From a virus, in IMG/VR virus record IMGVR_UViG_3300031509_000052, positions 1 to 58,326 of that record: a stretch of 58,326 bases of DNA. The stretch is one strand, 5' to 3'. The position numbers and the translations under genes were made by a program. This document shows positions 3,058-56,573 of this stretch, piece after piece (the first letter of the stretch is position 1; every line of letters begins with the position of its first letter). Below the pieces are notes generated by a model. It worked only from the letters and a program-made list of their open reading frames with translations, was not told the DNA's origin and searched no databases.

Positions 3058-3079
3058 CTCCCAGCACGAAAGGATCACG

Positions 3080-3526: not shown

Positions 3527-3538
3527 GGGAAAGAACCC

Positions 3539-4843: not shown

Positions 4844-4855
4844 AGGACACTCCCC

Positions 4856-8566: not shown

Positions 8567-8583
8567 GGTCTAGCCCCTAACTG

Positions 8584-8619: not shown

Positions 8620-8639
8620 TGCATAAGGAGTAAGAACAT

Positions 8640-9252: not shown

Positions 9253-9254
9253 TG

Positions 9255-10429: not shown

Positions 10430-10491
10430 TGTGTCTCTGCGGTGTGGACATCAGCTCGATAAAAGCGGCATACTACGCGATGGGAGGTACC

Positions 10492-11660: not shown

Positions 11661-11686
11661 CAGTAAGACAAGGAGCACGCCATTTC

Positions 11687-12985: not shown

Positions 12986-12996
12986 GGGACTGAGAG

Positions 12997-17298: not shown

Positions 17299-17301
17299 TG
17301 C

Positions 17302-42859: not shown

Positions 42860-45800
42860 GTGCCTACTCCGATTGGCGTCATCACGATGTTCGTGGGCAC
42901 ACATAGCGGTGTGCCTTCCGGGTGGGTGCGCGAGACGTCGCTGGACGGTCGCTTTCCTTATGGGGCGTCGTCCGGTATTGGGGCACCGGAAGGCTCCTCG
43001 ACTCACTCGCACGACTTTGGTTCACACACGCACACTAATGTTTCGCACTATCACACAGTTGGTGTCACCGGCCAGGACGGAACGATTTACGCTACAGCGA
43101 GCGGTAACCCAGTTCAGGCAGTCCCGGGCTCTTTAGTGGCATCTGTTGCGAGCGTTGCAACGACACTGAATAACGTTTCTGGTAGTACGTCCTCGGAGAC
43201 GCATACTCCACCGTATAGAACAGTTATTTTCATTCGTAACACATCGCAGAATGACTTAACCACAAGCGAGGCTCGTTGGTTCGCCGTTAGCGGCGGGACT
43301 CACGATACCAATTTCAACGATGTTTTCCCAATGGGCGCGCCCGCGGGCAGCAACGCTGGCGCAACTGGAGGCAGCGCGACACACACGCATACGGCGACGA
43401 CAACACACACTACTACCAGCCATACGCACAGTGGAACGGCTTCTGTGTTCATACCCGGGGTATCTACTAACACGGCCAGCGGCTCGTCCTACTTCCTGCA
43501 ACCGTTTGACCATAACCACACAGGAACTATTTCAACAAGTGCCTCAACTCACGGAGTTGTTTGCTCCGGTTCGTCGGAATCGGTTAACCACGAACCGCCG
43601 TTTTACACGCTACGTGTAGTTTCACTTACAGGTGAGCCGCCGATAGGAACTATTGGAATTTGGCTTAGTAGTCTTTCTTCGATCCCAATTGGGTGGAAAC
43701 TTTGTGACGGTACATCAGGTACACCGAACCTCGTTGGCCGGTTCGTAAAAGGTTCTCCGACAGCCGGTTCTACAGGGGGAAGCGCTTCGCACACACATTC
43801 AAACATAAGTCTTTCACTAACATCTAGTAGCGAAAATAACACACATGGTATTGGTTTTAGTTTGACACACAACGCTGACGGTCAAACTGTATTAGGGGCT
43901 ACGGGTTCGGGCGTTCTGGCGGAAACGTTCAGCACCTCATTTAGCTTTGGCGGGTCGGCTACAACGGTTTATGCCAGCGGTGACGCCGCTTCTGTGAGCG
44001 TCCTCAGCGCTTGGAATATCCCGTTGTCTATCCAATCTGCTTTCATTCAAAAAACCGCCAACAACACACCGCCGACGGTTAGCGGCGTCACTGTCACCTA
44101 CGCCTCCGGCCGCACCCGCACCGGCCCAAACACCACATGGGGCGTTACGTTCACCCCGTCCGACTCCGAACAAACCGGCGCGAATGCCCTCCGGTACCGT
44201 ATCACAACCAGCGGCACCATAGGCGGCGGCGGGACAGTCATCGCCTCGGGCAACTGCACGAGCGGCTCGCAGGTCAGCCTCACCGGCCTCTCCCACACAA
44301 GCCTGAGCGAAGGCAACAACACGCTCTACGTCCACATCTTCGACGGCGGGCTCTGGAGCAACCCGGTCTCGTTTACTGTCAGCCGCGACTCTGTCATCAG
44401 CGCGCCGACGGGGCTGAGCGTCTCCCCCGACCCGACATACACCCAGGACTACTCGGTGACGTTCAACGCGCCTGACACCACCTCCACGAACGCTAACGAA
44501 ATGCGCTGGGAGATCAGGACCGCGGCGAACGGCGGCGGGACGCTGATTGCGTTCGGCAACTTCACCCAAGGGAACGGCCGCTCGACGGGAACTGTCACCG
44601 ACTCCCTGCTTGCCCACGGGGAGAATACCCGGTACCTGAGGATCTATGACGGCGCGTGGAATGCGGCGGAGACGTCGTTTACCGTCAACGCGGTCTTCAA
44701 CACAACGATAAACAGCGAGACCGCAAACGCCACAGCCGACGCGCCTGCGCCCTCGCTGGCCATCTCCGCCGTCCCGCAGGGCGTGCAGGCGGATGCTGCC
44801 GCAACCGCGCCCGCCCCGAACCTTGCGATCGCCGCGGTTGTAAGCTCCGCCGCAGCACTCAGCAACACCGCTGCGCTCGAGGCGAACGTCGCGATTGCAA
44901 AGCTCATCGCCTCCATAAACGCGGCCGCCGCCGCAGAGGCGCCTTCGCCGAACCTCTCCATCTCCGCGGTCGTGGCCGGGCTTTACTCGCAGGCCTCAGC
45001 CGAGGGTATCCCCGGAGCGGTTGGGCGCGGCGTTTACAGTGCGGCGGCTGAGGCGGCGGCGGAGGCTCTGCCGGCTTCTGTTGAAGCGAGTGTCATTGTC
45101 GCGGGGGAGGCGGCGGAGGCTTCGGCGGAGGCCCTGCCGGCAGCGGTCTCGGGCTCGGCGAGCGTAAGCGGCGAGGCGGCGGCGGCCACGGCGGATGGGC
45201 TGAGCCCGGTCATTGCGGCATCGAGTATCATCAGCGGCCAGCCTGCGGAAGCCGCCGCAGAGGCGCTGCCCGCGGCTGTTGCCGGCCAGCACGCAGTAAG
45301 CGTTGCCGCCGAGAGCGCCGCTGCTTCCGCAGAGGCTCTCCCCGCCGGGACCCAAGTAACGTACACGGCGCAGCCGCCCGCCGCGGAGGCTTCGGCGGAG
45401 GCGCTGCCTGCGAGCGTCGGCAGCTCGAAGATCGTCACTGCGGCGGCTGCGGATTCCGCTGCAGAAGCCCTGAGCCCGGTGATCGAAGCGCAGGTCATCA
45501 GGGCGATTGCGGCTTCGGCGGCGGAGGCGGCGGCGGAAGCGGGAGCGGCCGCGGTCGGCCGGGGCGTTTACACGCAGCCCGCGGATGCGGCTGCGGAGGC
45601 TATCGGCGGGGAGATCGGCCGCGGGGTATACGGCGCTTCGGCGGAGGCGGCTGCGGATGCGCTGGCCGCGGCTGTGGGGCGGGGCATTGCGGCAGACAGT
45701 GCGGCCGCGCAGGCCGCAGCCGAAGTCCCGGGGATCGGCAGGAGCGTCGTTGCGGATACTGCCGAAGCGGCGGCTGATGCGCCGGCTCCGCAGCTCGGCA

Positions 45801-47005
45801 TCAACGCCGAGCCTGCGGAGGCGACGGCCGCGGCGCTTGTACCGGGTATTGGGAAGGCGCTTATCAGCGCCGTTGCGGAGGCGGCCGCTGAGGCGTACGG
45901 CGTCGGGGTCGGCCGCGGGGTTTACGCAGAGAGCGCCGAGGCATCGGCTGACGCAGGCGAGAGCGGCATCGGGAAGAGCCTGATCAGCGCGGCGGCCGAG
46001 GCTGCGGCTGATGCGCTCGGCGGCGCTGTGGGGATCGGCGTTTACAGTGCGGCAGCCGAGGCTGCGGCGGAAGCCGGGGCTGCGGCGGTCATCACCGAAG
46101 CCGTCGTGCACGGCGAGAGTGCGGAGGCTGCTGCTGAAGCCTCTGCGCCCGGCGTCGGCGGAAGCGTGGTGGTGGAAGGCGCGGCGGCGGCCGCGAACGC
46201 GGAAGCAGGCATTCCCGGCATCGCGCGGGTGCAGGCCGCCCCGACTGCCGAAGCCGCGGCCGATGCCCAGCCCGCAGCGGCGGTCGTCGTCACCTACGCC
46301 GCCCAGCCGCCGGCGGCAGAAGCGTCGGCCGAGGCGCTGCCCGCTGCAGTCTCGTATGCGGCGCTGCTCAGCGGTGGGACCGCAGAGGCGGCAGCGGCTG
46401 CAGGAGAGGCGGCTGCTATTGTTGCGCGGGATGTCCCCGGCGAGACGGCGGAAGCGGCGGCCGATGCGTACAGCAATGGGGCGGCTATCGGCCGGGACAT
46501 CAGCGCTGAAACCGCGGAAGCCGCCGCGGAGGCGCTCCCGGCCGCGGTGCTGGTCTACCGCACGATCAGCTCCGTCCCGGCCGAGGCGTTCGCGGATGCA
46601 CTCGCTGAACTCGTGGCAATCGGCGCTGTGGTGCCCGGCGACGACGCCGAGGCTTCGGCGGATGCGCTCCCGGCCACCACCGCGCAGAACGCCCAGATCA
46701 GCGGAACCGCTGCGGACGCAACCGCAGAAGCCCTGGCCGCGGCGGTGCTGGTTGCGAGGGTCATCGCCGCCGCAACCGCAGAGGCCGCAGCGGACGCGAG
46801 CGGCGAGCAGGCGCTCACAGAGGCGATTATCGCCAGCGCCGCGGCTGCGGCTGTTGCAGCCGCTCTCGTGCCGGGAATAACCGCAACAAACCCGCTGATG
46901 ATTGCCGCGGTGGCGTCGCTCATCACCAAGGTCTACGGGAACGCGTCGCTTGTACAGGAGCTCCGCGCCACGGCATCACTGGTGCAGCGGATCGATCAGA
47001 CGTAG
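42860..47005 (+). CDS. Giant tail fibre with collar domains and alanine-rich repeats
   Basis: A 1381-residue GTG-start protein. Residues ~1-400 have phage tail-collar like units: PIGVITMFVG...PSGWVRE, His-rich HTH/HSH clusters, and a second PIGTIGIWLSSLSSIPIGWK with GRFVKG and SHTHSN. Residues ~400-610 form two immunoglobulin/fibronectin-like domains (TPPTVSGVTV..., APTGLSVSPDP...). Residues ~615-1350 are about 30 repeats of roughly 22 residues around AEAxAEALPAAV. A short unique tail ends it. Collar domains attach fibres to tails; the repeat part probably forms a long stalk. The first 1.2 kb is poorer in G+C than the rest. Confidence 0.8.
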   Translation: MPTPIGVITMFVGTHSGVPSGWVRETSLDGRFPYGASSGIGAPEGSSTHSHDFGSHTHTNVSHYHTVGVTGQDGTIYATASGNPVQAVPGSLVASVASVATTLNNVSGSTSSETHTPPYRTVIFIRNTSQNDLTTSEARWFAVSGGTHDTNFNDVFPMGAPAGSNAGATGGSATHTHTATTTHTTTSHTHSGTASVFIPGVSTNTASGSSYFLQPFDHNHTGTISTSASTHGVVCSGSSESVNHEPPFYTLRVVSLTGEPPIGTIGIWLSSLSSIPIGWKLCDGTSGTPNLVGRFVKGSPTAGSTGGSASHTHSNISLSLTSSSENNTHGIGFSLTHNADGQTVLGATGSGVLAETFSTSFSFGGSATTVYASGDAASVSVLSAWNIPLSIQSAFIQKTANNTPPTVSGVTVTYASGRTRTGPNTTWGVTFTPSDSEQTGANALRYRITTSGTIGGGGTVIASGNCTSGSQVSLTGLSHTSLSEGNNTLYVHIFDGGLWSNPVSFTVSRDSVISAPTGLSVSPDPTYTQDYSVTFNAPDTTSTNANEMRWEIRTAANGGGTLIAFGNFTQGNGRSTGTVTDSLLAHGENTRYLRIYDGAWNAAETSFTVNAVFNTTINSETANATADAPAPSLAISAVPQGVQADAAATAPAPNLAIAAVVSSAAALSNTAALEANVAIAKLIASINAAAAAEAPSPNLSISAVVAGLYSQASAEGIPGAVGRGVYSAAAEAAAEALPASVEASVIVAGEAAEASAEALPAAVSGSASVSGEAAAATADGLSPVIAASSIISGQPAEAAAEALPAAVAGQHAVSVAAESAAASAEALPAGTQVTYTAQPPAAEASAEALPASVGSSKIVTAAAADSAAEALSPVIEAQVIRAIAASAAEAAAEAGAAAVGRGVYTQPADAAAEAIGGEIGRGVYGASAEAAADALAAAVGRGIAADSAAAQAAAEVPGIGRSVVADTAEAAADAPAPQLGINAEPAEATAAALVPGIGKALISAVAEAAAEAYGVGVGRGVYAESAEASADAGESGIGKSLISAAAEAAADALGGAVGIGVYSAAAEAAAEAGAAAVITEAVVHGESAEAAAEASAPGVGGSVVVEGAAAAANAEAGIPGIARVQAAPTAEAAADAQPAAAVVVTYAAQPPAAEASAEALPAAVSYAALLSGGTAEAAAAAGEAAAIVARDVPGETAEAAADAYSNGAAIGRDISAETAEAAAEALPAAVLVYRTISSVPAEAFADALAELVAIGAVVPGDDAEASADALPATTAQNAQISGTAADATAEALAAAVLVARVIAAATAEAAADASGEQALTEAIIASAAAAAVAAALVPGITATNPLMIAAVASLITKVYGNASLVQELRATASLVQRIDQT
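44698..46900 (+). repeat. About 30 alanine-rich 21-22 residue repeats
   Basis: Units follow AEA(A/S)AEALPAAV followed by 8-10 residues rich in V, I, S, G. Examples lie near 45040, 45110, 45240, 45380, 46310 and 46515. DNA copies differ in third positions, so the array is old or diversifying. The period and composition suit a helical or beta-solenoid rod. Confidence 0.75.
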
Positions 47006-47017
47006 GATAGAGGAGAC

Positions 47018-47407
47018 ATGCCGCCGGTAACGAAAGATGTCCGCAGGTACGACTTCCCCGAGACCGACCCCATCGTCCCGGGCGAAGGGAAGATCCTCAG
47101 GTTCACTGTCCGGGAGAGGACGGGACCCAATACGTGGGTGAACGCGTCCAGCTTCGCCCAGTACGCGAACACGACGTTTTTCCTGATGGACAAAGCCGCA
47201 GATGCCGGGACCACGGACGCTGAGCGGAAGGCGAAGTCCGTTTTCTGGGCGAGCGCGACACCGGGGACGCCGCCGTACATGGATGTGATCCTCTCCCCGG
47301 CACAGACCGCGCTTGTGCGCACTGGAGCACGCTGGTATGAGCTCTGGACTGATTACGACGGTGTGCCGACGCGTCTTGCATACGGCCACATCAGTTTTGT
47401 TGATTAG
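47018..47407 (+). CDS. Fibre-associated beta-barrel protein
   Basis: A 129-residue protein, GAGGAG before the ATG. Its N-terminal part (DVRRYDFPETDPIVPGEGKI LRFTVRER) and later YMDVILSPAQTALVRTGARW look like small phage proteins that follow fibre genes and carry a beta-sandwich similar to BppU-type N-domains. Function inferred from position only. Overlaps the protease gene by 71 nt. Confidence 0.45.
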   Translation: MPPVTKDVRRYDFPETDPIVPGEGKILRFTVRERTGPNTWVNASSFAQYANTTFFLMDKAADAGTTDAERKAKSVFWASATPGTPPYMDVILSPAQTALVRTGARWYELWTDYDGVPTRLAYGHISFVD

Positions 47408-47930
47408 CACCGCGGCCGTTTACAGCGGAGCAGACGGGACAAAGGAAGGGCCGCAAACCGCCAGGGCGTATACAATAGCCGGCTGGAAGTACGACCACCT
47501 CGATATCACGTACAACGACCCGCGGCTCAGGGATGCGCTGCTCATCTGGGTGGAGATGTCCGCGCTGCGGGACGGCGGGCTGAGGGAAGAGGGCGCGGAC
47601 ATCAGGCTTGTCACGATCACCCCGTGGCCATATCCGTGGTTGTGGGGGATGGCCGCGCCGATCCACGGCGAGGACGGGATTGTCGAGTACTGCTGGGTGG
47701 CGATCAACCCCATCTTCGGGGATCAGCTCCCGCTCGGTATTCTGGCCCACGAGATTGGCCACTGCCTTGGGCTGGAGCACACAACGGTGCCTGATCAGTT
47801 GATGAGCGAGTTCTGCTGCGGTTTACCAGGGGACGATGACCGCGCGGGAATCCAGGCTATCTACGGGCCGCCCGCCCCGCTCAGCGGTTACAAACACAAA
47901 AAGATAGTCCCGCTGGTGGCGCGGGACTAG
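47337..47930 (+). CDS. Secreted metzincin (matrixin-like) zinc metalloprotease
   Basis: A 197-residue protein. HEIGHCLGLEH is a perfect HExxHxxGxxH metzincin zinc site; LM in TTVPDQLMSEF supplies a Met-turn. The N-terminus (MSSGLITTVCRRVLHTATSVLLIST) is basic then hydrophobic, like a signal peptide. Start ATG 47337 has GGAG about 10 nt upstream. A secreted protease next to fibre genes may work on host surface proteins or process virion parts. Its stop shares a CTAG palindrome with the opposite gene. Confidence 0.75.
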   Translation: MSSGLITTVCRRVLHTATSVLLISTAAVYSGADGTKEGPQTARAYTIAGWKYDHLDITYNDPRLRDALLIWVEMSALRDGGLREEGADIRLVTITPWPYPWLWGMAAPIHGEDGIVEYCWVAINPIFGDQLPLGILAHEIGHCLGLEHTTVPDQLMSEFCCGLPGDDDRAGIQAIYGPPAPLSGYKHKKIVPLVARD

Positions 47931-48160
47931 TCGAGTTTCGTTGCTTTGAGCACGCGTTTCCCCGCAGGGAGACGCTGGACGGTTAGCTGGTAGCCAAGGC
48001 GGCGGGCATAGGTGTACGCCGTCCGGTCAACCGGCGCATCGATCACTACACCTTGTTCGGCTTCGGCAACCTGCGCGAAGAACTCCTCCCAGTAGGCTTT
48101 GCGTTCTCCGCGGCGGGCTGCGATCGGCTTGCCATCCCTGGCGGGGTCGTATGGTCGCAT
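47927..48160 (-). CDS. Small unknown protein, last gene of the accessory operon
   Basis: A 77-residue protein from ATG 48160 with AGGAG 8 nt upstream. It is basic with a short helix (RRGERKAYWEEFFAQVAEAE) and a pattern VDRTAYTYARRLGYQLTVQR that recurs in small phage proteins of unknown function. It has its own promoter (48207-48235) flanked by inverted repeats. Confidence 0.55.
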   Translation of the reverse strand: MRPYDPARDGKPIAARRGERKAYWEEFFAQVAEAEQGVVIDAPVDRTAYTYARRLGYQLTVQRLPAGKRVLKATKLD

Positions 48161-48175
48161 TATGATTCTCCTGAA

Positions 48176-48222
48176 GTGCACGCTGCAGGACCCGGTATTG
48201 ACACGAATCCTACAGCGTGCAC
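48176..48222. repeat. Inverted repeat GTGCACGCTG / CAGCGTGCAC around a -10 box
   Basis: Arms at 48176-48185 and 48213-48222, 27 bp apart, flank the -10 box (48207-48212) and the start region of the leftward promoter. This is a typical operator layout, or an RNA hairpin in the leader. Confidence 0.5.
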
Positions 48223-48235
48223 AACAGGCCGTCAA
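48207..48235 (-). promoter_or_regulatory. Promoter of the 77-residue protein gene
   Basis: TTGACG (48230-48235), 17 bp, TAGGAT (48207-48212) on the minus strand. The -35 touches the stop of the upstream gene (48236). Confidence 0.55.
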
Positions 48236-48898
48236 CTATGCGGGAAGGTCGCCGCCGACCTGCCCGCGCACCCCGTAGTACTCGCAGAGCACATCGAGGA
48301 GCGCTTCCGGGTCGATGTGGACCACCTCGCGAATATCGCATGGCAGGTTCATCGAGCGCGCACAGTAGGTCGGCATCGCCGGCAGCGACGTCGACACGTG
48401 AGCGACGCGCGGCGGAACCCAGATGTACTCGAGCCGCGCCGCCGAGGCCCTCCAGCCGTACTCGCCTTCGAGGACGACGCCCCACGCGCGCACGGCAGCG
48501 AGGACCTCGAGGCTGCAGTACATGTACCCGCTGAGGCTCTCTGAGAGGCGGTCGAACGGTGCGGCATCCGCCACCAAGTAGCGGTCTGCCTTGAGCTTGG
48601 CGACCGTCTTGTACCCCCACACACCGCAGGTGTGCTCGCCGTACTTCAAATGGTCGATGCACATCTGCCGCGTGTCGGAGGATTGGTTCTTGCGCTTGAC
48701 GACGTAGCCGTTGCGCAGTGCGGTGAGGGCATCGTCGTAGCGCGCCTTTTCACCGCCGCAGCGGCCGATCAGGTCCCGGCCCTCCCACTCGTTGCCGTAC
48801 GCGCCGGTCAGGACGACCTTATCTGCGTAGACGGTGGGATGAAAGACGCGGTACATGATGATCTGCTCGCTGCTCTGGACAACCGGGAGGAGCGGCAT
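48236..48898 (-). CDS. Unknown accessory protein
   Basis: A 220-residue protein with AGGAGGAGG before the ATG. It has an alpha/beta look with scattered cysteines (MCIDHLKYGEHTCGVWGYKT, YCARSMNLPCDIREVV) and an acidic C-terminal helix (PEALLDVLCEYYGV). No family recognised. First of the leftward accessory genes that has no RNA element in front. Confidence 0.5.
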   Translation of the reverse strand: MPLLPVVQSSEQIIMYRVFHPTVYADKVVLTGAYGNEWEGRDLIGRCGGEKARYDDALTALRNGYVVKRKNQSSDTRQMCIDHLKYGEHTCGVWGYKTVAKLKADRYLVADAAPFDRLSESLSGYMYCSLEVLAAVRAWGVVLEGEYGWRASAARLEYIWVPPRVAHVSTSLPAMPTYCARSMNLPCDIREVVHIDPEALLDVLCEYYGVRGQVGGDLPA

Positions 48899-48918
48899 GG
48901 TACTGATCCTCCTCCTCC

Positions 48919-49077
48919 CTAGTTCCGGCCGCGCCGGACAGGAACGGGAACAAGCTCCCGTTCCTCATCCGGCACAACCGCGGGCTCCGGTGCTGGAGCA
49001 GGCGCGGGAGTGATCACCGGAGCCTCGACGGGCTTCGGGACCACGACGACGCGCAGCGGCCTGCCGATATCGCCCAT
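48919..49077 (-). CDS. Small proline-rich protein
   Basis: A 52-residue protein. It starts MGDIGRPLRVVVVPKP and continues with alternating Pro-Ala/Glu (TPAPAPAPEPAVVPDEERE), ending in arginines. Short 'MGxIGxPxRxxxVxPxxxP' proteins with proline-rich tails occur in many phages; their function is unknown. A weak GGAGG lies about 15 nt upstream. Confidence 0.5.
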   Translation of the reverse strand: MGDIGRPLRVVVVPKPVEAPVITPAPAPAPEPAVVPDEERELVPVPVRRGRN

Positions 49078-49086
49078 GGCTTTTCT

Positions 49087-49491
49087 CTACACCTCCAGTA
49101 TGAACTCGTGTGCGGGTGCGGTACGGACAGTAGCAAACTGTCCGTAGTGGACAAGGTCCAGAGGGGAGCGTTCCGGCACGACGATGTGCCGGATCTCCAC
49201 CTCTGCAGCGCGGAAGCCGCGCTCACTGAGCACGACGTGTGTGCCGGGCACAGCGGCGACCCGCACAAGGGCGAGCCGCCGCTGCACGAATGCCGCGCGG
49301 CGGAATGCGTCCATCTTCGTGAAGTAGACGTAGATCCCGCACGTGCAGGACTCGACCGGCGCATCGTGCGACGGGTTTACGAGGCACCGCGCTTTCTGGC
49401 GCGGTGTGTCCCAGACCTCGTCTGTCGTGAAGGCGCGGAGCCTGCCGTCATCGCCGACAAGCATCCCGCGCCAGCCGAACGTGATGAGCAC
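49087..49491 (-). CDS. Unknown protein with Cys/His motif
   Basis: A 134-residue protein from GTG 49491, just after the RuvB stop, with ATG 49464 as alternative. The motif CLVNPSHDAPVESCTCGIYV (a Cys/His set ending in CxCGIY) looks like a small metal site known from scattered phage and actinobacterial proteins of unknown role. The C-terminal half is beta-rich. Confidence 0.5.
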   Translation of the reverse strand: MLITFGWRGMLVGDDGRLRAFTTDEVWDTPRQKARCLVNPSHDAPVESCTCGIYVYFTKMDAFRRAAFVQRRLALVRVAAVPGTHVVLSERGFRAAEVEIRHIVVPERSPLDLVHYGQFATVRTAPAHEFILEV

Positions 49492-49492
49492 G

Positions 49493-50704
49493 TCAGCAGT
49501 AGTCAACCTTGCCCTCCGCAGCGAGGAGCGCGACGTGCATGCCTTTCGGCGTGAGTTCGCGCCCGCGATCCGTGCGAGCAATGAAGCCGAGCCGAACAAG
49601 GTTCGGCTCATAGACGCGCTCGATCGTTTCCACCGACTCACCAAGGCTTGCAGCAATGGCACGGACACCGACCGCCTTCCTGCTTGAGAACATGACGCGC
49701 TTGTAGATCGCAAGGAGGATCTCACGTTCGAACCGCGTGAGCCCGTACTTGTCGATCTGCATGGCGCGCATCGCCATGTCCACGATATCAGGCCGGAGCG
49801 GCGCGCTGGAGACGTCGAACGGCACGGTGTCGTCCTCCGGGTCAGGCATCTCAGCCACCGCGAAGTCGAAGACTCGCTTGAGCAGCTGGTTCGCCTGCCG
49901 CGGAACGCCTTTCGCACGCGCAGCGATCATCTCCAGCGCCTGCTGGGCGGGCGACTTTACCTCGATCGGCTCACCATCCGGGCCGCTGACGATGCCTGGA
50001 GCGAAGAGCCCGTCAACGTAGTTGTCGTACTCTTCCGACTCCAGCTCCCAGAGGATCCGGAAGGATCGCCGCAGCATCTTCGTGATGTCTTCGTCGCTGT
50101 AGTACTCGAGGTGATACTTCAGCGGGAAGCGGTCGAGGAAGGCCCGCGGCAGGATGGCCGGGTCCGTTGTCGCGCCGACAACGGTGAACCGCGGGACGAC
50201 ATGATCGACGAAGCGGAAATCCTCGAGGAGCGGGAGGAGCACCGTGATGGCGTCCTTCGGCAGCCCGTGGATTTCGTCGATCATGATGATCACCTGCGTC
50301 GGCGGGGTTTCAGCGGCTGCGTTGATGACCGCGGCAACGTGTGAGATGACACGTTCCTTGGACATCGACGGGCCGGTGTCGACAATGAGCGCATGGCCCA
50401 TCTCCGCCGCAAGCACCGACGCGATCGTGGTCTTGCCGAGACCGGGAGGCCCGGTCAGGAGGATGTGATCGAGCGGCACGCCGCGGCGCTGGGCCGCGCG
50501 CATGTAGGTGCGGAGCGTGCGCTTGATCTCATCCTGACCGACCACGTCATCGAGACGGCGCGGCCGCAGGGAATCATCGTGGACGTCGTCCAGTTCGCCG
50601 TGGTAGAGCGTCGAGACAGTCAGCAGGGCCCCATCAACAGGGGACCCAATGCTGCTGCTGCTATCAGAGTCGTCGGCCGAAAGCCGGGACAGGATATTCG
50701 TCAT
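49493..50704 (-). CDS. RuvB-like Holliday junction helicase
   Basis: A 403-residue AAA+ protein. After a disordered start come LRPRRLDDVVGQDEIKRTLR, Walker A GPPGLGKTT, Walker B IIMIDEIH and the sensor GATTDPAILPRAFLDRF, all as in RuvB. The C-terminal winged helix (LTRFEREILLAIYKR ... LVRLGFIARTDRGRELTPKG) matches the RuvB DNA-binding domain. Cellular RuvB is loaded by RuvA; none is seen here. GGAGGAAGAGG precedes the ATG, which overlaps the upstream stop (ATGA). Confidence 0.85.
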   Translation of the reverse strand: MTNILSRLSADDSDSSSSIGSPVDGALLTVSTLYHGELDDVHDDSLRPRRLDDVVGQDEIKRTLRTYMRAAQRRGVPLDHILLTGPPGLGKTTIASVLAAEMGHALIVDTGPSMSKERVISHVAAVINAAAETPPTQVIIMIDEIHGLPKDAITVLLPLLEDFRFVDHVVPRFTVVGATTDPAILPRAFLDRFPLKYHLEYYSDEDITKMLRRSFRILWELESEEYDNYVDGLFAPGIVSGPDGEPIEVKSPAQQALEMIAARAKGVPRQANQLLKRVFDFAVAEMPDPEDDTVPFDVSSAPLRPDIVDMAMRAMQIDKYGLTRFEREILLAIYKRVMFSSRKAVGVRAIAASLGESVETIERVYEPNLVRLGFIARTDRGRELTPKGMHVALLAAEGKVDYC

Positions 50705-51507
50705 GCCTCTTCCTCCGTGTAGGTGATGCCGAAGATGCGCTGCGCAACAACAGCGCCGCTCCAGTTCGAACCCGCGAGCCGCCGCCGTTCGAGCACTTCG
50801 AACTCGTCCGGGGCGTTCTCCTGAATCAGCGCGCGCCACGACGGATACGTGGAGCCGTGCCGCACACCGACTGTTGCACCGATGAGGTGCGCGTACTCAG
50901 CGGCGGCGCCGGTGATCACGTAGCGCGTCGGGCGGCGGCCGCGCGTTGCAGACGGGCTGCGGCGCTGCCGCCGCGTGTTGTGCGCGGCTGATGCCTTGAA
51001 GCGGATGCTGGACTCGGACTCGGCCACGACTTCGATCTGCGTCGAATAGCCGAGTGCTGTGATCTCAGCAACACGCTCCGCGGCGAGGTTCTCGATCGCA
51101 TCAGCGATCTGCGACTGGAGGCTGGCGTTCTTGCGCAGCCGCTCGGCATCTGCGCGCAGCCGCTCGACTGTTGCCGCCAGTTCAGGCGGCCGGAAGAGCA
51201 GCAGGCGCTGACCCGGTGAAAGCGGCGGCACGTCGGTCAGCTCGATTGCCTCGCGATCTGCGAGAAGCTGACCAACCAGCGATTCCTGTTCCGCGGCATC
51301 GAGACGATCGCGAAGCCGCTCGAGTTTGAGGATTTTCCCGCTGAGCGCCTTTACATGCTGGCGGAAGATCACCAGCGCTTGGCTTTGCGGGTCCTGTTCT
51401 TCGAGCGACTTCACCGACTCCGTCAACGACGCGAGCGCGGCCTTTGCTTCGGACAGTTGCTTCTCCACTTCTGCCCGGAGCAGGGGGGTCGATTCCCCCG
51501 GTTTCAT
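50701..51507 (-). CDS. Coiled-coil protein upstream of ruvB-like gene
   Basis: A 268-residue protein with a perfect AAGGAGGTGA before the ATG. Residues ~1-150 are coiled coil (EVEKQLSEAKAALASLTESV, ERLRADAERLRKNASLQSQI); a basic linker (RRQRRSPSATRGRRPTR) leads to a compact C-terminal domain (GATVGVRHGSTYPSWRALIQ). Coupled to the RuvB gene by an ATGA overlap, so it could be a functional partner. Function unknown. Confidence 0.55.
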   Translation of the reverse strand: MKPGESTPLLRAEVEKQLSEAKAALASLTESVKSLEEQDPQSQALVIFRQHVKALSGKILKLERLRDRLDAAEQESLVGQLLADREAIELTDVPPLSPGQRLLLFRPPELAATVERLRADAERLRKNASLQSQIADAIENLAAERVAEITALGYSTQIEVVAESESSIRFKASAAHNTRRQRRSPSATRGRRPTRYVITGAAAEYAHLIGATVGVRHGSTYPSWRALIQENAPDEFEVLERRRLAGSNWSGAVVAQRIFGITYTEEEA

Positions 51508-51531
51508 GGGTCTCACCTCCTTGCGCCAGTT

Positions 51532-51602
51532 GCGCACACCGTACGAGGAGTAGATTGTACTCCATGTACGGTGTGCGCAAGCATGCCAATGAGGCATGCT
51601 TG
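51532..51602 (-). other. Tandem large hairpins in front of the coiled-coil gene
   Basis: GCGCACACCGTAC (51532-51544) pairs with 51566-51578; inside, GGAGTA (51547-51552) pairs with TACTCC (51558-51563). A second hairpin, CAAGCATGCC (51578-51587) with GGCATGCTTG (51593-51602), abuts it. The minus strand also holds a good -10 (TACAAT) within the first hairpin. The position equals that of the hammerheads upstream, but no ribozyme core is present. Confidence 0.7.
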
Positions 51603-51624
51603 CAACAACGGAGGGTGGTGTACT

Positions 51625-52578
51625 TTACAGGAAGTGCACGACGAGGTTGCGGATGTTGCTGAGCAGCATAGGGGTTACCTCTGTGCCGCCGATCGAATCC
51701 ACAACCGTGCAGCGGAGCCCCAAGCGGGGCGCGGCGATGATCGTGCCGAGTTTGCGCGGGTCGCCGGTGTACCGCGGCCCCGGCCATCTGCTCGACCATT
51801 GCGAGTAGTACGTGATCCACTCGCCGGGGTGCAGAGGATCGGGAGTGAAGACGCGGATCACCGGGCTGTTGTCGACAGCGTACGCTGCGATCTGTACGAC
51901 GTACTCGAGCGGCGCGCCCACTCCGACGGCATGGTGGATCACGCCGGTCTCCGAATTGCGCACCGTGAGGATGTCGCCAGTGACCAGCGGGTACTCCATG
52001 CCGCCGCGGCGGATGGCGAGGAAGTCTGCGGTTCGTTCCGCTTCGCCGTAGGCGAGACCGCACATGAGCGGCCTATCGCCGTCGAGCACCACGTCGAAGA
52101 TGCGCTTGTAGCGCACATCGTCGAGGATCGACGGCGACTCCGGAAGCGACTCAGCGAACGGGATCGGGAGTTCGAGCCGCACGATTTCCAGCTTGTAGAC
52201 TGGACCATCGTCGGTCTCGAACTCGTCGGCCCACATGATCGCGCGGCCCCCCTTGTACGGCACGATGTGCTCGGTGTCCGCAGCGAGCGGCTCCGTCCGC
52301 CAGTAGGTGCCCGGCCGGGAAAGATCAACCTCTTCAGCAGAGATGACCCACGGCTGCGCCTCTACAACGTGCGGCCTCGGCCCCTGCACGTACAGGTAGG
52401 AGTCTCGGCTAGGGCTGCCGCCATTGTACACGTCGGCATTGCCGAACCACCCCGGCGCCACGTTTGCGGCGTAGTCATCGGCTTCGTCCCATGCGGACTC
52501 GTCGATGTCGACGCCCTGATCCTTCAGCACGACCAATGCGTACCGGCGTGCTGCTTCCCGGTTCTGAAAAACCGGCAT
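51625..52578 (-). CDS. Unknown 317-residue accessory protein
   Basis: ATG 52578 lies 8 nt after AAGGAGGTGA; a GTG at 52590 sits inside that ribosome binding site and is rejected. The protein is alpha/beta (REAARRYALVVLKDQGVDID, WVISAEEVDLSRPGTYWRTE, KLEIVRLELPIPFAESLPES) with no recognised motif. It is the downstream gene of ribozyme copy A. A hairpin with UGUAAA in its loop covers its stop codon. Confidence 0.55.
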   Translation of the reverse strand: MPVFQNREAARRYALVVLKDQGVDIDESAWDEADDYAANVAPGWFGNADVYNGGSPSRDSYLYVQGPRPHVVEAQPWVISAEEVDLSRPGTYWRTEPLAADTEHIVPYKGGRAIMWADEFETDDGPVYKLEIVRLELPIPFAESLPESPSILDDVRYKRIFDVVLDGDRPLMCGLAYGEAERTADFLAIRRGGMEYPLVTGDILTVRNSETGVIHHAVGVGAPLEYVVQIAAYAVDNSPVIRVFTPDPLHPGEWITYYSQWSSRWPGPRYTGDPRKLGTIIAAPRLGLRCTVVDSIGGTEVTPMLLSNIRNLVVHFL

Positions 52579-52596
52579 CTTGGTACTCACCTCCTT

Positions 52597-52664
52597 GGCC
52601 TGCCATCTTCAGTGCCGGTAGGCCAGCTCCGGCAGACGGGAGCAATCGCTGCTCCCGTTTCGGC
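52597..52664 (-). ncRNA. Hammerhead ribozyme, type II topology, copy A
   Basis: Minus strand, read 5' to 3': GCC, GAA-A, stem III (ACGGGAGCA with TGCTCCCGT, 9 bp), cleavage-site C after GU (base 52635), stem I (TGCCGG with CCGGCA), core CUGAAGA, then U-GGC pairing back to GCC as a short stem II, and GGCC. All invariant hammerhead core positions are present (position 7 may vary). Predicted cut between 52635 and 52634. It starts directly after the TAA of the 52889 gene and ends before AAGGAGGTGA of the next. Confidence 0.85.
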
Positions 52665-52889
52665 TTACTTATCGGCGAGTTTGTTATCGAAGAGTTCGCC
52701 TGCGGCGATCTCACAGGCTGCTTCAAAGAGGAAGTCTTCTTCTTCGCTGAGGTCACACTCAATCAGCTCCCAGAGCTTCTTGAGCAGACGTTCAGCTTCG
52801 GCCTTTTCCTCTTCGGTCAGCGCTTCCCAGGCGGCGTAGGCTTCGGCCCGCGCCGCCTGGTACTCCTGCCACTCGTCTTCGTTCATCAT
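52665..52889 (-). CDS. Small acidic helical protein
   Basis: About 74 residues (ATG 52889; GTG 52892 and ATG 52886 also possible). Very acidic and helical (DEWQEYQAARAEAYAAWEAL, EKAEAERLLKKLWELIECDL). Its start overlaps the upstream stop (TAGTGATG) with GGAGGAGGTGA upstream, so translation is coupled and no ribozyme lies between them. Function unknown. Confidence 0.55.
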   Translation of the reverse strand: MMNEDEWQEYQAARAEAYAAWEALTEEEKAEAERLLKKLWELIECDLSEEEDFLFEAACEIAAGELFDNKLADK

Positions 52890-52891
52890 CA

Positions 52892-53287
52892 CTACTCTTT
52901 CTCACCTCCTCCTGCGGTTACAGCAGAGAACGCCGGGAGCACCGCGGCTGCGGCTTTTACAAGCTGCGCGTCGCCGAAGAGCACCCACGGTGTGTGTTTG
53001 ACGACGATCAGGCCGCCATAGGCGAAGGCGGGCTCGATCGCGACCGGCGCGAACGGCTCATCGGCGAAGATCGCCGCGAACAGCCGCGTCCAGTCGGGGA
53101 GCGTGTCGGGGCCCTTTACAGTCAGGAACCGCTCGCCGATCGTGATGTGCACAGTGAGGCTGTAGCCAGTCTCATTGACTATCACAGCACCGCGGCGATG
53201 CGCGACTATAACGGGGCTCCCGACCTGCAGCACTTCCGCAGGAGCGGGTGCAGCCGCTTGGGCTGCGGCTGCTACGGGATAAAGCAC
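52892..53287 (-). CDS. Unknown accessory protein
   Basis: A 131-residue protein from GTG 53287, 5 nt after AAGGAGGTGA. An alanine-rich start (VAAAAQAAAPAPAEVLQVGS) precedes a beta-rich body (GYSLTVHITIGERFLTVKGP, AYGGLIVVKHTPWVLFG). No family recognised. Lies directly behind ribozyme copy C. Confidence 0.5.
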   Translation of the reverse strand: MLYPVAAAAQAAAPAPAEVLQVGSPVIVAHRRGAVIVNETGYSLTVHITIGERFLTVKGPDTLPDWTRLFAAIFADEPFAPVAIEPAFAYGGLIVVKHTPWVLFGDAQLVKAAAAVLPAFSAVTAGGGEKE

Positions 53288-53302
53288 GGTGATCACCTCC
53301 TT

Positions 53303-53372
53303 GGCCTGCCTATCATCAGTGCATGGCGGCCAACCCATGCAGACAGGGGTTTCCGCCAACCCCTGTTTCGGC
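53303..53372 (-). ncRNA. Hammerhead ribozyme, type II topology, copy C
   Basis: GCC-GAA-A, stem III (ACAGGGGTT with AACCCCTGT, 9 bp), cleavage-site C (53342) in GUC, stem I (TGCATGG with CCATGCA, 7 bp), core CUGAUGA, UA, GGC, A, GGCC. Perfect agreement with the hammerhead core apart from the two bases before stem II. Predicted cut between 53342 and 53341. Followed by AAGGAGGTGA and GTG 53287. A 12-bp hairpin overlaps the upstream gene's stop (53391-53428). Confidence 0.9.
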
Positions 53373-53390
53373 TGTTCGAGGTTTACTTGG

Positions 53391-53428
53391 GCTCAGCGCC
53401 TGTTTACCCGTGGTAGCAGGCGCTGAGC
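53391..53428 (-). other. 12-bp hairpin over a stop codon
   Basis: GCTCAGCGCCTG (53391-53402) pairs perfectly with 53417-53428; the loop holds TTTACC and the stop codon of the 53736 gene. It could form a stable 3' end for that mRNA just ahead of ribozyme C. Confidence 0.6.
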
Positions 53429-53736
53429 AGCGTCTGCGGCACATACGTGCCGGTGTCTGCGTTCCAGTGAAGGAACGTGACAGGCCGCGGCTCGATAGAA
53501 ACCGCAGCCTCGAGAATCGCGAGTGCGGCCGGCGTAAAGCCGGACACCACTACAGCGAACGGGCCCTCGCGAGGGATGATCCTCCTCGCCATGCGCGTCA
53601 GCTCCGCTGGATTCAGCGGTAGCTCATTCGGGAAAATTGGCGGCCCCACTACAACGGGGCCGATGCCATCGATCGTGATGGTCTGCCCCGGCCGCACGTG
53701 ACGCGCGGTCATCGTGAAAATGGGATGATTTTTCAC
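53404..53736 (-). CDS. Unknown accessory protein
   Basis: A 110-residue protein from GTG 53736, about 10 nt after AAGGAGGTGA. It has beta-strands with glycine turns (TITIDGIGPVVVGPPIFPNE) and an alpha/beta second half (EGPFAVVVSGFTPAALAILE). No family recognised. Flanked by ribozymes D (5') and C (3'). Confidence 0.5.
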   Translation of the reverse strand: MKNHPIFTMTARHVRPGQTITIDGIGPVVVGPPIFPNELPLNPAELTRMARRIIPREGPFAVVVSGFTPAALAILEAAVSIEPRPVTFLHWNADTGTYVPQTLLSACYHG

Positions 53737-53760
53737 TTCGTCTGTCTCACCTCCTTGTTC

Positions 53761-53829
53761 GGCCTGCCAATCATCAGTGCGCGGAGGCCATCCCGCGCAG
53801 ACAGGGGCTCCGCCCGCCCCTGTTTCGGC
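53761..53829 (-). ncRNA. Hammerhead ribozyme, type II topology, copy D
   Basis: GCC-GAA-A, stem III (ACAGGGGC with GCCCCTGT), cleavage-site C (53800), stem I (TGCGCGG with CCGCGCA), core CUGAUGA, UU, GGC, A, GGCC. Predicted cut between 53800 and 53799. It begins 2 nt after the TAA of the 54095 gene; AACAAGGAGGTGA follows. Confidence 0.9.
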
Positions 53830-53831
53830 AG

Positions 53832-54095
53832 TTAGCTTTCGAGAATCGGGAGGAAGAGATCCTCCTTTTCGCCGATGAATACGCGCGCGAGCCGCGCCTC
53901 AGGAGAAAGACCCAGAATGTGCCGAGCAAGCCGTTCGGCCTGCTGGCCCGGGTCTTCCTCGTAACGCCGCCCCTCTACAATGCGCGCGTGGCACACTCCG
54001 ATCGGAGAGTGCGCCGTAACGGCGAGCCGCGGACCTTTGCAGTCCGTGGCTGGAAGATATTTGACCCGTGCGTAGTCGGTATCGTAGTACGGCAC
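53832..54095 (-). CDS. Unknown small protein
   Basis: An 87-residue protein from GTG 54095 with AAAGGAG 6 nt upstream. It has two cysteines (ATDCKG, GVCHARIVEG) and a helix (DPGQQAERLARHILGL). No ribozyme precedes it; a 140-nt spacer with a possible 30-residue frame separates it from the next gene upstream. Confidence 0.5.
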   Translation of the reverse strand: MPYYDTDYARVKYLPATDCKGPRLAVTAHSPIGVCHARIVEGRRYEEDPGQQAERLARHILGLSPEARLARVFIGEKEDLFLPILES

Positions 54096-54145
54096 CCCTA
54101 AACTCCTTTGATTGTGTGTTGAGCGCTTTACAGTGTCGATCGTAG

Positions 54146-54239
54146 TTTATGGCGCGGACCCTGCGAGGCGAACCACAGGTTCAGATGTACGGCATGACAC
54201 GCCGCGATGTGCCGCAGGGACCCGCGCCTTTACAATCAC
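54146..54239 (-). CDS. Possible 30-residue peptide
   Basis: A short minus-strand frame starts at GTG (54239), overlapping the upstream stop as GTGA, with GGAAGG 10 nt before it, and ends at TAA near 54147. It would read MIVKARVPAAHRGVSCRTSE and ten more residues. Length is too short to judge; coupling and spacing are the only support. Confidence 0.25.
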
Positions 54240-54445
54240 GCGCCGGGTACCTTCCAGTGCCCCGCGCGTCGACCGACAACGCTGGCTTCGACGTACCGCC
54301 GCGCTCCGCAGCGGCACTCTTCGACGTGCACCACGTTGCCGTGGTACATGTCACCGTAGCCCCGTGCGGAGCAATCGATCGCGGCCACGCAGTAGTGCCA
54401 AAGCTGCGTCATCGTCGAAGCGGCACGGTGCCTCTTGTGCAGCAC
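54236..54445 (-). CDS. Small cysteine-containing protein
   Basis: A 69-residue protein from GTG 54445 with AAAGGAGGTGA upstream, directly behind ribozyme E. Cysteines and histidines are spaced as HYCVAAIDC and VVHVEECRCGARRY, suggesting a small metal-binding fold. No family recognised. Confidence 0.5.
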   Translation of the reverse strand: MLHKRHRAASTMTQLWHYCVAAIDCSARGYGDMYHGNVVHVEECRCGARRYVEASVVGRRAGHWKVPGA

Positions 54446-54464
54446 CTTTCACTCACCTCCTTTC

Positions 54465-54538
54465 GGCCTGCCATCATTCAGCACCGGTAGGCCACCTCCG
54501 GTGGACCGCGGGCTGCGTTTACAGCACGCGGTTTCGGC
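54465..54538 (-). ncRNA. Hammerhead-like ribozyme, copy E (core insertion)
   Basis: GCC-GAA-A, stem III (ACCGCG with CGCGGT, capped by a GCTG/CAGC extension whose loop holds UGUAAA), cleavage-site C (54504), stem I (CACCGG with CCGGTG), then CUGAAUGA, which has one base more than the CUGANGA core, then U-GGC-A-GGCC. The G of the upstream stop TAG is the first base of GCC. The insertion may reduce or abolish cleavage (predicted between 54504 and 54503). Confidence 0.7.
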
Positions 54539-55086
54539 TATGCGGGGAGCGTGACGCCGTAGGTTTTCGACACGCTGTTGTAGACGCGAGACTCGAGGAC
54601 TCGCGCCTTTACAACAGTCGCGTAGTCCATGATCGCGTCAAACTGCCGCGGGGAAAGCGGCAGTTTGTACTTGCGATCCTCCTCCGGTGTTTCCATCCAC
54701 TCCACGATCTGATCGCGGAGTGAGCGGCGGAACGGCGAGCGGAACTCCTTTGTCTTCAGGAGATTGACGATCGCCAGCACCGCGGGCATTCCCGCGCGCT
54801 CCTTTACAAGCATGAGCGCGCGCTGCCATGTCTCCGGCCATTCGGCCGGAACAATTGCCCACAGGTAGCGCCAGTCAATCTCGTTACGGCACCACTCTGC
54901 AGGATCCATCCAGTCCGGCAGCACCACGCGCTTTACAAGAAAGCGCGGCGCTTCGTACTGGGTGAAGTCGTCGGGCCCCTGAATGAACGCTTTCTGTTCT
55001 TCGAGGAGCTCAGCATCCTTCGCGGGATCAAACTCCCGCAGAGGCGCCAGCGTGTCGCTCACCTCGCCGTTCCGTTCGAACAGCAC
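54538..55086 (-). CDS. Unknown accessory protein
   Basis: A 182-residue protein from GTG 55086. The AGGAGGTGA lies about 20 nt upstream, farther than normal, so a non-standard start nearer to it cannot be excluded. Helical with tryptophans (WMDPAEWCRNEIDWRYLW, WQRALMLVKERAGMPAVLAI). No family recognised. The coding sequence contains three hairpins with TTTACA in the loop. Confidence 0.5.
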   Translation of the reverse strand: MLFERNGEVSDTLAPLREFDPAKDAELLEEQKAFIQGPDDFTQYEAPRFLVKRVVLPDWMDPAEWCRNEIDWRYLWAIVPAEWPETWQRALMLVKERAGMPAVLAIVNLLKTKEFRSPFRRSLRDQIVEWMETPEEDRKYKLPLSPRQFDAIMDYATVVKARVLESRVYNSVSKTYGVTLPA

Positions 55087-55125
55087 CTCAACTGTTTTCG
55101 TAGATCACCTCCTGATAGAAATTGC

Positions 55126-55193
55126 GGCTTACCATCATCAGAGCGCATGTTGCCATCATGCGCTGAGCCCGATTCCGTCATCGGGCTTTCGGC
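55126..55193 (-). ncRNA. Hammerhead ribozyme, type II topology, copy F
   Basis: GCC-GAA-A, stem III (AGCCCGAT with ATCGGGCT), cleavage-site C (55165), stem I (AGCGCATG with CATGCGCT, 8 bp), core CUGAUGA, U, GGU, AA, GCC. Stem II is GCC/GGU with a wobble. Loop I reads GGC rather than GGCC and the 3' partner reads GCC, a matched change. Predicted cut between 55165 and 55164. It begins 8 nt after the stop of the 55858 gene. Confidence 0.85.
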
Positions 55194-55201
55194 TGGTTCC
55201 T

Positions 55202-55858
55202 TTACTTGGAAGCTGCGGCCGCGGCTTCTGCAAGCCGCGCCGCAACTTCACGATCGACACGGAGCGCTGCCGCCCCGTACCGGATGACTGACTCGACGGC
55301 GGCGATCAGTTCGTACCCATAACCGCCGGCGATTTCATTGACGAAATCGCTGAACGGCATGAGCACGTACCGCGCCGTGTCTTCGTCGCTACGCGGGCAC
55401 GCGTACCGCATGGCCGCACTGAGCGCCACACCAACGCCGAGCAGCTGCGGCGACTTCTGCGCCCACGCGACATACACGGGTGTCTGCGGAGCAATCCACC
55501 CGTGGTGTCGCTTGAGCGCGTTTACATGCGGCCTCGCTGCGAAGACCGCGCGCGCGATTGCAACCGCCGGATCTTCCGACGCTACGGTGTGCCGGATTTG
55601 ATACGGTCCCTCCACGTCAGCGACATAGAGGGGACCCTTTTCCGTGCGGACAATGTCGATCCACACCGTCACCTCGCCTTCGTCGTTTTCAACGAAGGCC
55701 CGGTAGCCGGTTGCGACCGGCGCGATGTCGATCAGCGGCCTGTTGTGCTCGCCGTATGCATCGGCGAGCATCTTCATCGCGCTGCGGATGATCTCGTCCA
55801 TGACGAGATCATCACCGCTGCTGATCGTCGTGCTGGGGTTTTCCACCCCCGTGTCCAT
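55202..55858 (-). CDS. Unknown accessory protein
   Basis: A 218-residue protein with AAGGAGGTGTGAGTAA before ATG 55858. An acidic N-terminal helix (DEIIRSAMKMLADAYGEHNR) is followed by strands (EVTVWIDIVRTEKGPLYVAD) and a helical middle (AVAIARAVFAARPHVNALKR); the C-terminus is alanine-rich. No family recognised. Its 225-nt leader is full of inverted repeats (next entries). Confidence 0.5.
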   Translation of the reverse strand: MDTGVENPSTTISSGDDLVMDEIIRSAMKMLADAYGEHNRPLIDIAPVATGYRAFVENDEGEVTVWIDIVRTEKGPLYVADVEGPYQIRHTVASEDPAVAIARAVFAARPHVNALKRHHGWIAPQTPVYVAWAQKSPQLLGVGVALSAAMRYACPRSDEDTARYVLMPFSDFVNEIAGGYGYELIAAVESVIRYGAAALRVDREVAARLAEAAAAASK

Positions 55859-55898
55859 TTACTCACACCTCCTTGTGTTTCTTCAGTCAGCGATCGCC

Positions 55899-55966
55899 GC
55901 GCGTTTACAAACGCGCGCGTCGTGCGATCACTCGTACACACATACGCGGCCGCGTTTACAAACGCG
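55899..55966. repeat. Two 16-bp palindromes CGCGTTTACAAACGCG and a linking repeat
   Basis: Copies at 55900-55915 and 55951-55966, each with 7-bp arms around AC/GT. Between them lies ctcgtacacacatacgcg (55931-55948), repeated with one change at 56377-56394. The same set occurs ahead of the 56290 gene, so it looks like a duplicated operator or leader element. Confidence 0.65.
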
Positions 55967-55971
55967 TGGAA

Positions 55972-56062
55972 GCGTATCGCCGCTGATACCCGCACGCATG
56001 CGACAATCGCCGCGTGCGTGCGGGTATCAGCGGCGATACGCGCACCTGGTGCGCGTATCGCC
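55972..56062 (-). promoter_or_regulatory. Leader with mutually exclusive hairpins
   Basis: A 27-bp perfect inverted repeat (55972-55998 with 56015-56041) overlaps a 15-bp one (56032-56046 with 56048-56062). The segment 56032-56041 can pair with either 55972-55981 or 56053-56062, which are identical (GCGTATCGCC). On the leftward RNA the short hairpin forms first and the long one can replace it, as in attenuators. Confidence 0.6.
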
Positions 56063-56083
56063 TGTTTGTTGTGGGTCTACCTG

Positions 56084-56290
56084 CTAGAGCGCCGTAGTCC
56101 TGAAGCGGCACGTATCCTCTGGTTCGTCGATCCACCAGTAGGTGAGCGTGCCGCTCTCATCATCAACGGCGTCGAAGTAGTAACATACTGCGTCGGTGTA
56201 CGGGATTTCTCCCAAACACCTCTCGATTGTGTGCCGTCCGAGCCACTTGGTGCGAATTTCGTGGACGTGAATCCACTTGTGGTTGTTCAC
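56084..56290 (-). CDS. Unknown small protein
   Basis: A 68-residue protein from GTG 56290 with GGAGGTTCAA upstream. It contains HKWIHVHEIRTKWLGRHTIE, then an acidic strand-rich part (FDAVDDESGTLTYWWIDEPE). Two cysteines. No family recognised. Preceded by two of the 16-bp palindromes. Confidence 0.55.
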   Translation of the reverse strand: MNNHKWIHVHEIRTKWLGRHTIERCLGEIPYTDAVCYYFDAVDDESGTLTYWWIDEPEDTCRFRTTAL

Positions 56291-56314
56291 TTGAACCTCC
56301 ACGAAAAATTTCCG

Positions 56315-56354
56315 CGCATTTACAAACGCGCGCAGTGCCGCGTTTACAAACGCG
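56315..56354. repeat. Two further 16-bp palindromes
   Basis: CGCATTTACAAACGCG (56315-56330, one mismatch) and CGCGTTTACAAACGCG (56339-56354), 8 bp apart, just upstream of the ribosome binding site of the 56290 gene. The ctcgcacacacatacgcg repeat follows at 56377-56394. Confidence 0.65.
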
Positions 56355-56396
56355 CGTATGCGTATGCGAACTTTCGCTCGCACACACATACGCGCG

Positions 56397-56537
56397 CCGA
56401 TCGCCGATGGCGATCGGACGCGGCCGCGCGCCCAGGGCGCTGAGACCTGGTCTCAGTAGAACATTTGTTCTGAATGCGATTCGGTCTCGAATTGGACTCA
56501 GTCTAAATCTGGAATGAATCCAGATTTAGACTGAGTC
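56397..56537. repeat. Cluster of consecutive perfect palindromes
   Basis: In order: CCGATCGCC/GGCGATCGG (56397-56417), GCGCCC/GGGCGC (56428-56440), CTGAGACC/GGTCTCAG (56440-56456), AGAACA/TGTTCT (56458-56471), and a 19-bp A+T-richer pair (56495-56513 with 56519-56537, loop ATGAA). No gene is seen in 56291-56573. Short loops and perfect arms suggest cruciform or RNA hairpin function. Confidence 0.7.
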
Positions 56538-56573
56538 TAGGTCTAGGCTTCGCGTCCTGGTGGCGCGCGGGTG

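Follow-up and report, generated by a model that had tools for sequence, protein, structure and literature searches.

Clusters of hammerhead ribozymes flanking prophage genes were described in 2011, with the proposal that they cut phage RNA into single-gene mRNAs (Perreault et al., PMC3088659). In the prophages of Clostridium scindens, Azorhizobium caulinodans and Agrobacterium tumefaciens, several such hammerheads share the coding strand and separate single genes or short gene blocks, and a long phage RNA is proposed to be cut at them (PMC3088659, Fig. 3). Cleavage of native clusters was shown in vitro for three and in E. coli for one (PMC3088659). The haloviruses HF1 and HF2 carry a viral hammerhead upstream of a helicase gene, within a multi-gene transcript that has a 5' end mapped near the cut (PMC3088659). 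Bacterial hammerheads are also enriched in the vicinity of Mu-like phage genes and of one another, for reasons not known (PMC10085705). Here we describe five type II hammerheads within 2.6 kb of a tailed-phage record, IMG/VR virus record IMGVR_UViG_3300031509_000052, all on the gene strand. The whole record, positions 1 to 58,326, was analysed and is referred to below as the window. We consider it likely that the five ribozymes punctuate a leftward multi-gene phage RNA into mRNAs of one or two genes.

A preliminary description of the window had placed five minus-strand hammerheads between leftward genes, and all five are borne out by the searches described here: the Rfam model RF02276 (Hammerhead_II), a covariance model of our own (R2) and a type II descriptor. 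In transcript order they are F, D, C, B and A:

55126..55193, minus strand: hammerhead F, predicted cut 55165/55164 (found by R2 and the descriptor)
54465..54538, minus strand: hammerhead D, predicted cut 54504/54503 (found by RF02276 and R2)
53761..53829, minus strand: hammerhead C, predicted cut 53800/53799 (found by RF02276 and R2)
53303..53372, minus strand: hammerhead B, predicted cut 53342/53341 (found by RF02276 and R2)
52597..52664, minus strand: hammerhead A, predicted cut 52635/52634 (found by RF02276 and R2)

Four of the five copies pass the RF02276 gathering score of 37 bits, with scores of 41.0-49.4 bits: B (53300-53373, 49.4 bits), C (53758-53830, 48.0 bits), A (52594-52665, 42.6 bits) and D (54462-54539, 41.0 bits). 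The rest of the window holds no other match at any Rfam gathering score, and F went undetected by Rfam even at E ≤ 10. R2 was built from nine equal-length ribozymes taken only from other viral contigs, with the window sequences excluded; an earlier model from an automatic alignment, with five pairs, was discarded. It recovers all five copies (A, E = 2.7e-15; C, 4e-14; B, 1.3e-13; D, 1.7e-13; F, 3.6e-8), and the next match in the window has E = 0.06. The descriptor finds four copies, or five if one extra core A is permitted, all on the minus strand, and gave no match in 100 first-order Markov simulations of the window. All three stems are present in only these five of the 23 GAAA...CTGA(A)NGA anchor pairs in the window. 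The CTGANGA...GGC anchor alone occurs six times against 3.25 expected, which is not significant, so the stems are needed for recognition. Because the descriptor itself demands part of the stem pairing, weight falls on the simulations and on the pseudoknot and ortholog comparisons below. Most pattern matches in bacterial genomes lacked stems, with no descriptor match at 96 of 118 loci, and they were left out of the ribozyme count.

Each copy begins with a stem II strand (GCC), followed by GAA, A15.1, the stem III hairpin, U16.1, C17 and the cut. The 3' half consists of the stem I hairpin, CUGANGA, one or two extra bases, the second stem II strand (GGC, or GGU in F) and a tail. Stem II thus holds both ends of the motif in all five copies, which makes the topology type II, as first proposed, and C17 falls at the five positions originally predicted for cleavage (52635, 53342, 53800, 54504 and 55165). 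Stem III has 6-10 bp, stem I 6-8 bp and stem II 3-5 bp; I and III are closed by loops and II is open. The core, C3-U4-G5-A6-N7-G8-A9, G12-A13-A14, A15.1-U16.1 and H17, is intact in A, B, C and F. The earlier count of four invariant cores therefore holds, with D (54465-54538) as the deviating copy. The general layout given at that stage also stands, except that it overlooked the U, UU or UA that separates A9 from stem II in all five. A and F have a single U at this place, B has UA and C has UU. Stem II has 5 bp in C; in F, whose core is intact, stems I and III are 8 bp long and stem II (GCC/GGU) 3 bp. Adjacency of stem II to A9 is usual in type II hammerheads, though not defining, and the one or two extra bases account for the low Rfam scores of the window copies.

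Extra bases after A9 also occur elsewhere, in 22 of 23 copies of a long viral array (L273, described below), in six of nine copies in Streptomyces phage R4 and in one of nine in phage Hank144. Since other arrays mix inserted and uninserted copies, we treat the insertion as variation within the family; the inserted form is a common subtype with poor Rfam scores. The window copies share with RF02276 and the hammerheads of PMC3088659 the core bases, the three stems, the open stem II, the loop I/tail pseudoknot and the occurrence in phages. They differ from RF02276 in the U, UU or UA after A9 and, in one copy, an extra core A. The array is of a known kind, and the punctuation idea is not new. Compared with the prophage clusters, the window has five copies in 2.6 kb, all of type II, beside different genes, and its cleavage is predicted from sequence. 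The HF1/HF2 hammerhead, in contrast, stands alone and has the kind of altered core that requires high salt (PMC3088659).

In all five window copies, loop I may pair with the tail just past stem II, a pseudoknot that most known type II members have, though not every one. The candidate pseudoknot pairs UGGCC or UUGGCC with GGCCA, GGCCG or GGCCAA (in B a 6-bp UUGGCC/GGCCAA, in A UGGCC/GGCCA), and reaches 6 bp in four copies and 4 bp in F, with G-U allowed. None of the searches demanded this pairing; they did demand outer stem pairs. Among nine aligned ribozymes of other viruses (alignment A2), 97% of the cells pair, covariation is 0.685 compared with 0.216 after shuffling, and one pseudoknot pair is G-C in five sequences and A-U in four. 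More broadly, 37% of 263 distinct ribozymes have a Watson-Crick loop I/tail run of at least 5 bp, compared with 6% for shuffled tails and 9% for tails taken from other ribozymes. The minimum-energy folds of C and D contain the hammerhead stems, and the hammerhead of F lies within 0.3 kcal/mol of its minimum. In B, C, D and F, stems III and I are already predicted to form correctly in RNA that stops where stem I ends.

Each of the five ribozymes is on the coding strand, in the gap that separates a stop codon from the following ribosome-binding site. The gap from stop to stem II is 8 nucleotides (nt) at F, -1 at D, 0 at C, 31 at B and 0 at A. At D the upstream TAG shares its G with stem II, and at A the TAA abuts it. 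The next start codon follows 20-44 nt past stem II, with a strong ribosome site at normal spacing at four of the five junctions. The fifth, F, also fits if the 182-residue gene downstream starts at an in-frame ACG (55101), about 7 nt past AGGAGG, instead of the listed GTG (55086). This ACG may be the true start, and with it the distance from cut to start at F matches that at the other four ribozymes. The five junctions hold no terminator-like sites. Covariance models built independently of the window, the descriptor statistics and the related arrays together uphold the type II identity and co-directional placement of the motifs.

Our proposal is that the leftward RNA would fold each hammerhead as it emerges from transcription, with the stem II strands at its ends, stems III and I closed, and loop I paired just past stem II. 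Each copy would then be cut 3' of C17. The 3' end of the upstream mRNA would be a GC-rich hairpin (stem III) bearing a 2',3'-cyclic phosphate. The downstream mRNA would carry a 5'-OH and open with the stem I hairpin, its 5' end lying about 54-64 nt ahead of the start codon. A new downstream 5' end was part of the preliminary description, and this part stands; its position directly before the ribosome site does not, since the stem I hairpin comes first and the ribosome site follows some 40 nt later. Cyclic-phosphate hairpin ends and 5'-OH ends hinder exonucleases and enzymes that depend on a 5'-monophosphate, so the array should yield end-protected mRNAs of one or two genes. In this way, one long RNA could become separate mRNAs with structured, chemically blocked ends, and stability and translation could be set for each of them with no need for terminators or additional promoters. 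We infer that the array is transcribed as one RNA, that it is cleaved in the phage and that the phage benefits.

The earlier view that a run of hammerheads used as operon punctuation is unusual has to be tempered. The same arrangement and hypothesis were published in 2011 (PMC3088659), and much longer arrays exist in other viral contigs, with further arrays in cultured Streptomyces phages. A pattern search of viral contigs returned at least 120 stretches; because the pattern asked for an extra U after A9, its totals are biased toward inserted copies. Among the matches listed, descriptor copies number 11 in L006, 11 in L096, 9 in L031 (Streptomyces phage Hank144), 9 in L081 and 5 in L085. The record of L006 (IMGVR_UViG_3300033112_000310, bases 1-18000, analysed as L273) carries 23 type II hammerheads on one strand, spanning 0.9 to 14 kb (about 13 kb), with almost one ribozyme per gene. 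The Rfam model has 20 matches in this record at E ≤ 0.001 and only five of them exceed the cut-off, so hammerhead arrays are probably under-annotated. Two other stretches contain back-to-back hammerheads with no intervening gene (L283, 1245-1311 and 1314-1378; L274, 17620-17684 and 17687-17754), which by their spacing would release a very small RNA.

The R4-like phages (Arquatrovirinae) were reached via one locus with mostly uninserted copies. Like the window, they carry type II copies (6-13 per phage) between genes, on the coding strand, before ribosome sites. They have no DNA similarity to the window, their gaps after the stop codon are often longer, and most copies in four of the six phages are without the extra U. 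The descriptor counts nine ribozymes each in R4, Hank144 and Pablito, six in Amethyst, 13 in Marav and 11 in Salutena; all 57 are on the coding strand and none on the opposite one. Forty-four of the 57 overlap no annotated gene, or 43 of 48 when R4 is set aside. The R4 annotation contains many small or early-starting genes, and several annotated starts run across ribozymes. Its small genes gp75.1, gp67.1 and gp60.1 (L280) coincide with hammerheads at 3898-3999, 6855-6947 and 9227-9310 and, by this coincidence, may not be genes; ribozymes also run into gp72, gp76, gp77, gp79 and gp81, at the gene start or close to it.

With the genes of the six phages grouped by BLASTP, a ribozyme is kept at the g13/g2, g2/g3, g4/g5 and g7/g8 junctions in nearly all of them; the g7/g8 copy of Amethyst was detected by R2. 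In an orthologous set from five phages, four pairs changed on both sides and 97.6% of the cells are paired, compared with at most 60% when the structure is slid along the alignment. Computation thus shows conservation with compensatory changes in related arrays. The g2/g3 junction holds a single ribozyme in R4, Hank144, Pablito and Amethyst. In Marav and Salutena an extra gene (g27) and an extra ribozyme lie between g2 and g3, and Marav has a second extra gene (g28) with a ribozyme between g4 and g5. In these two cases gene and ribozyme were gained together as a unit. The long arrays, conserved junctions and gene-plus-ribozyme units go beyond what we found in PMC3088659. A search of the open-access literature, with subscription papers and supplements outside its reach, returned no report of hammerheads in Streptomyces phages or of long arrays; a paper on aminoglycosides and phages touches on hammerhead binding only briefly. 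It is possible, though we hold it only tentatively, that a gene with its own hammerhead is a mobile expression unit of many unrelated tailed phages, in which cutting is coupled to translation. Nearly one ribozyme per gene would then lie flush with the prior stop and near the next ribosome site across whole gene blocks, and every gene would be given a separate, end-protected mRNA.

Several observations weigh against the punctuation we propose. The DNA of the window array has no match among 50,697 phage records, and the 182-residue, 317-residue, RuvB-like and DNA polymerase proteins have no confirmed relatives in viral contigs. These searches found no close relative, and the conservation described above is that of other arrays. 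The core of D carries an A inserted after A6 (CUGA-A-UGA). An insertion after A6 gave low activity in vitro (PMC3088659), and D, with its extra core A, would by analogy probably cut slowly. We found no assay in the literature of one or two extra bases after A9, and four of 18 consensus hammerheads tested in 2011 failed to cut (PMC3088659). Finally, the nested minimum-energy folds of A and B beat the hammerhead by 1.6-2.3 kcal/mol. The competing folds use the pseudoknot bases, and the energy of the pseudoknot was left out of the comparison; it would be expected to offset the deficit.

The same features could instead belong to regulated switches, in which active ribozymes cut conditionally. The upstream stop codon contacts stem II, and only a few bases separate the pseudoknot from the ribosome site, so ribosomes that finish one gene or load on the next would hold the ribozyme open. 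Cutting would then be confined to ribosome-free RNA, or its rate would depend on a ligand or ion. Regulated cleavage has already been raised (PMC3088659), and it suits both the gaps of -1 to 0 nt at three of the five window copies and those of 0-5 nt at many copies of two other arrays. The window copies also differ in core and fold. Many R4-like junctions, however, have gaps of 15-45 nt, no large ligand-binding loop was seen, and the conserved cores suggest selection for plain activity. We regard conditional cutting as unlikely. At the other extreme, the motifs could be plain hairpins or decayed, inactive ribozymes. The core insertion in D and the failure of Rfam to find F point in this direction, but every core base is kept in four copies, the stems and a possible pseudoknot are present in all five, and related arrays retain ribozymes with compensatory changes, which leaves inactivity with almost no credibility.

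Two further explanations are unrelated to the making of mRNAs. The ribozymes could mark recombination boundaries, short repeated homology by which phages swap gene cassettes. The insertion of g27 with a ribozyme at g2/g3 in Marav and Salutena, and of g28 likewise in Marav, fits such exchange. Homology alone would not need strand bias, placement from stop to ribosome site, stems that stay paired while their sequence changes or covariation in the pseudoknot, and the conserved letters are few and scattered; we find this explanation highly improbable. Slightly less probable still is that ribozymes acting in pairs set free RNAs of gene length, which are then ligated into circles. An RNA cut out between two neighbouring co-directional ribozymes has a 5'-OH and a 2',3'-cyclic phosphate end, as RtcB-type ligation requires, and eukaryotic ribozyme-bearing elements are known to form circular RNAs. 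Nevertheless, a coding unit gains nothing clear from circularization here, and spliced or circular products were looked for in the 2011 work and none were seen (PMC3088659).

The window carries terminase, head protease, tape measure and DNA polymerase genes, which identify a tailed phage. It is distant from members of the phage collection; the best matches of its DNA polymerase have about 26-33% identity. Genes were called as open reading frames with ribosome sites. Comparison with Pfam and PHROGs assigned a function to none of the leftward array genes, which are, in transcript order:

55202..55858, minus strand: gene of 218 amino acids, upstream of ribozyme F, no Pfam or PHROGs match
54538..55086, minus strand: gene of 182 amino acids, between F and D, weak match to phrog_30881
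54236..54445, minus strand: gene of 69 amino acids, after D, strong ribosome site
53832..54095, minus strand: gene of 87 amino acids, before C, no ribozyme between it and the 69-residue gene
53404..53736, minus strand: gene of 110 amino acids, between C and B
52892..53287, minus strand: gene of 131 amino acids, after B
52665..52892, minus strand: gene of 75 amino acids, before A, overlaps the preceding 131-residue gene
51625..52578, minus strand: gene of 317 amino acids, after A

The ribozymes lie between consecutive genes, as first described, at five of the seven junctions of these eight genes; the junction at 54236/54095 and the overlap at 52892 are without one. Further left, a minus-strand gene at 49493-50839 encodes an AAA protein similar to RuvB, in which both the P-loop and the C-terminal winged-helix domain are present. 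In 43600-56350 the minus strand has 24 copies of the hexamer TGTAAA, against one on the plus strand; most lie among leftward genes, and those at 55909-56348 are inside palindromes CGCGTTTGTAAACGCG or close forms. These one-way repeats are reminiscent of the stoperators of phage L5, which we take to be a candidate likeness only. The minus strand of 55860-56560 is gene-poor and has a 31-bp inverted repeat (55972-56002 and 56011-56041, 97%), an adjoining 15-bp perfect inverted repeat and two more long hairpins; this region is perhaps a control region or origin. Matches to microRNA families at 55971-56042 are this long inverted repeat and score far under the cut-offs of those families.

The role of bacterial and phage hammerheads has been open since 2011. 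The window array, the 23-copy array and, above all, the cultured R4-like phages bring that role within reach of experiments in ordinary laboratory hosts. Cutting, once confirmed, would be a protein-free route from one transcript to many mRNAs, and annotation pipelines, by which most copies of some arrays go unnoticed, would need correction.

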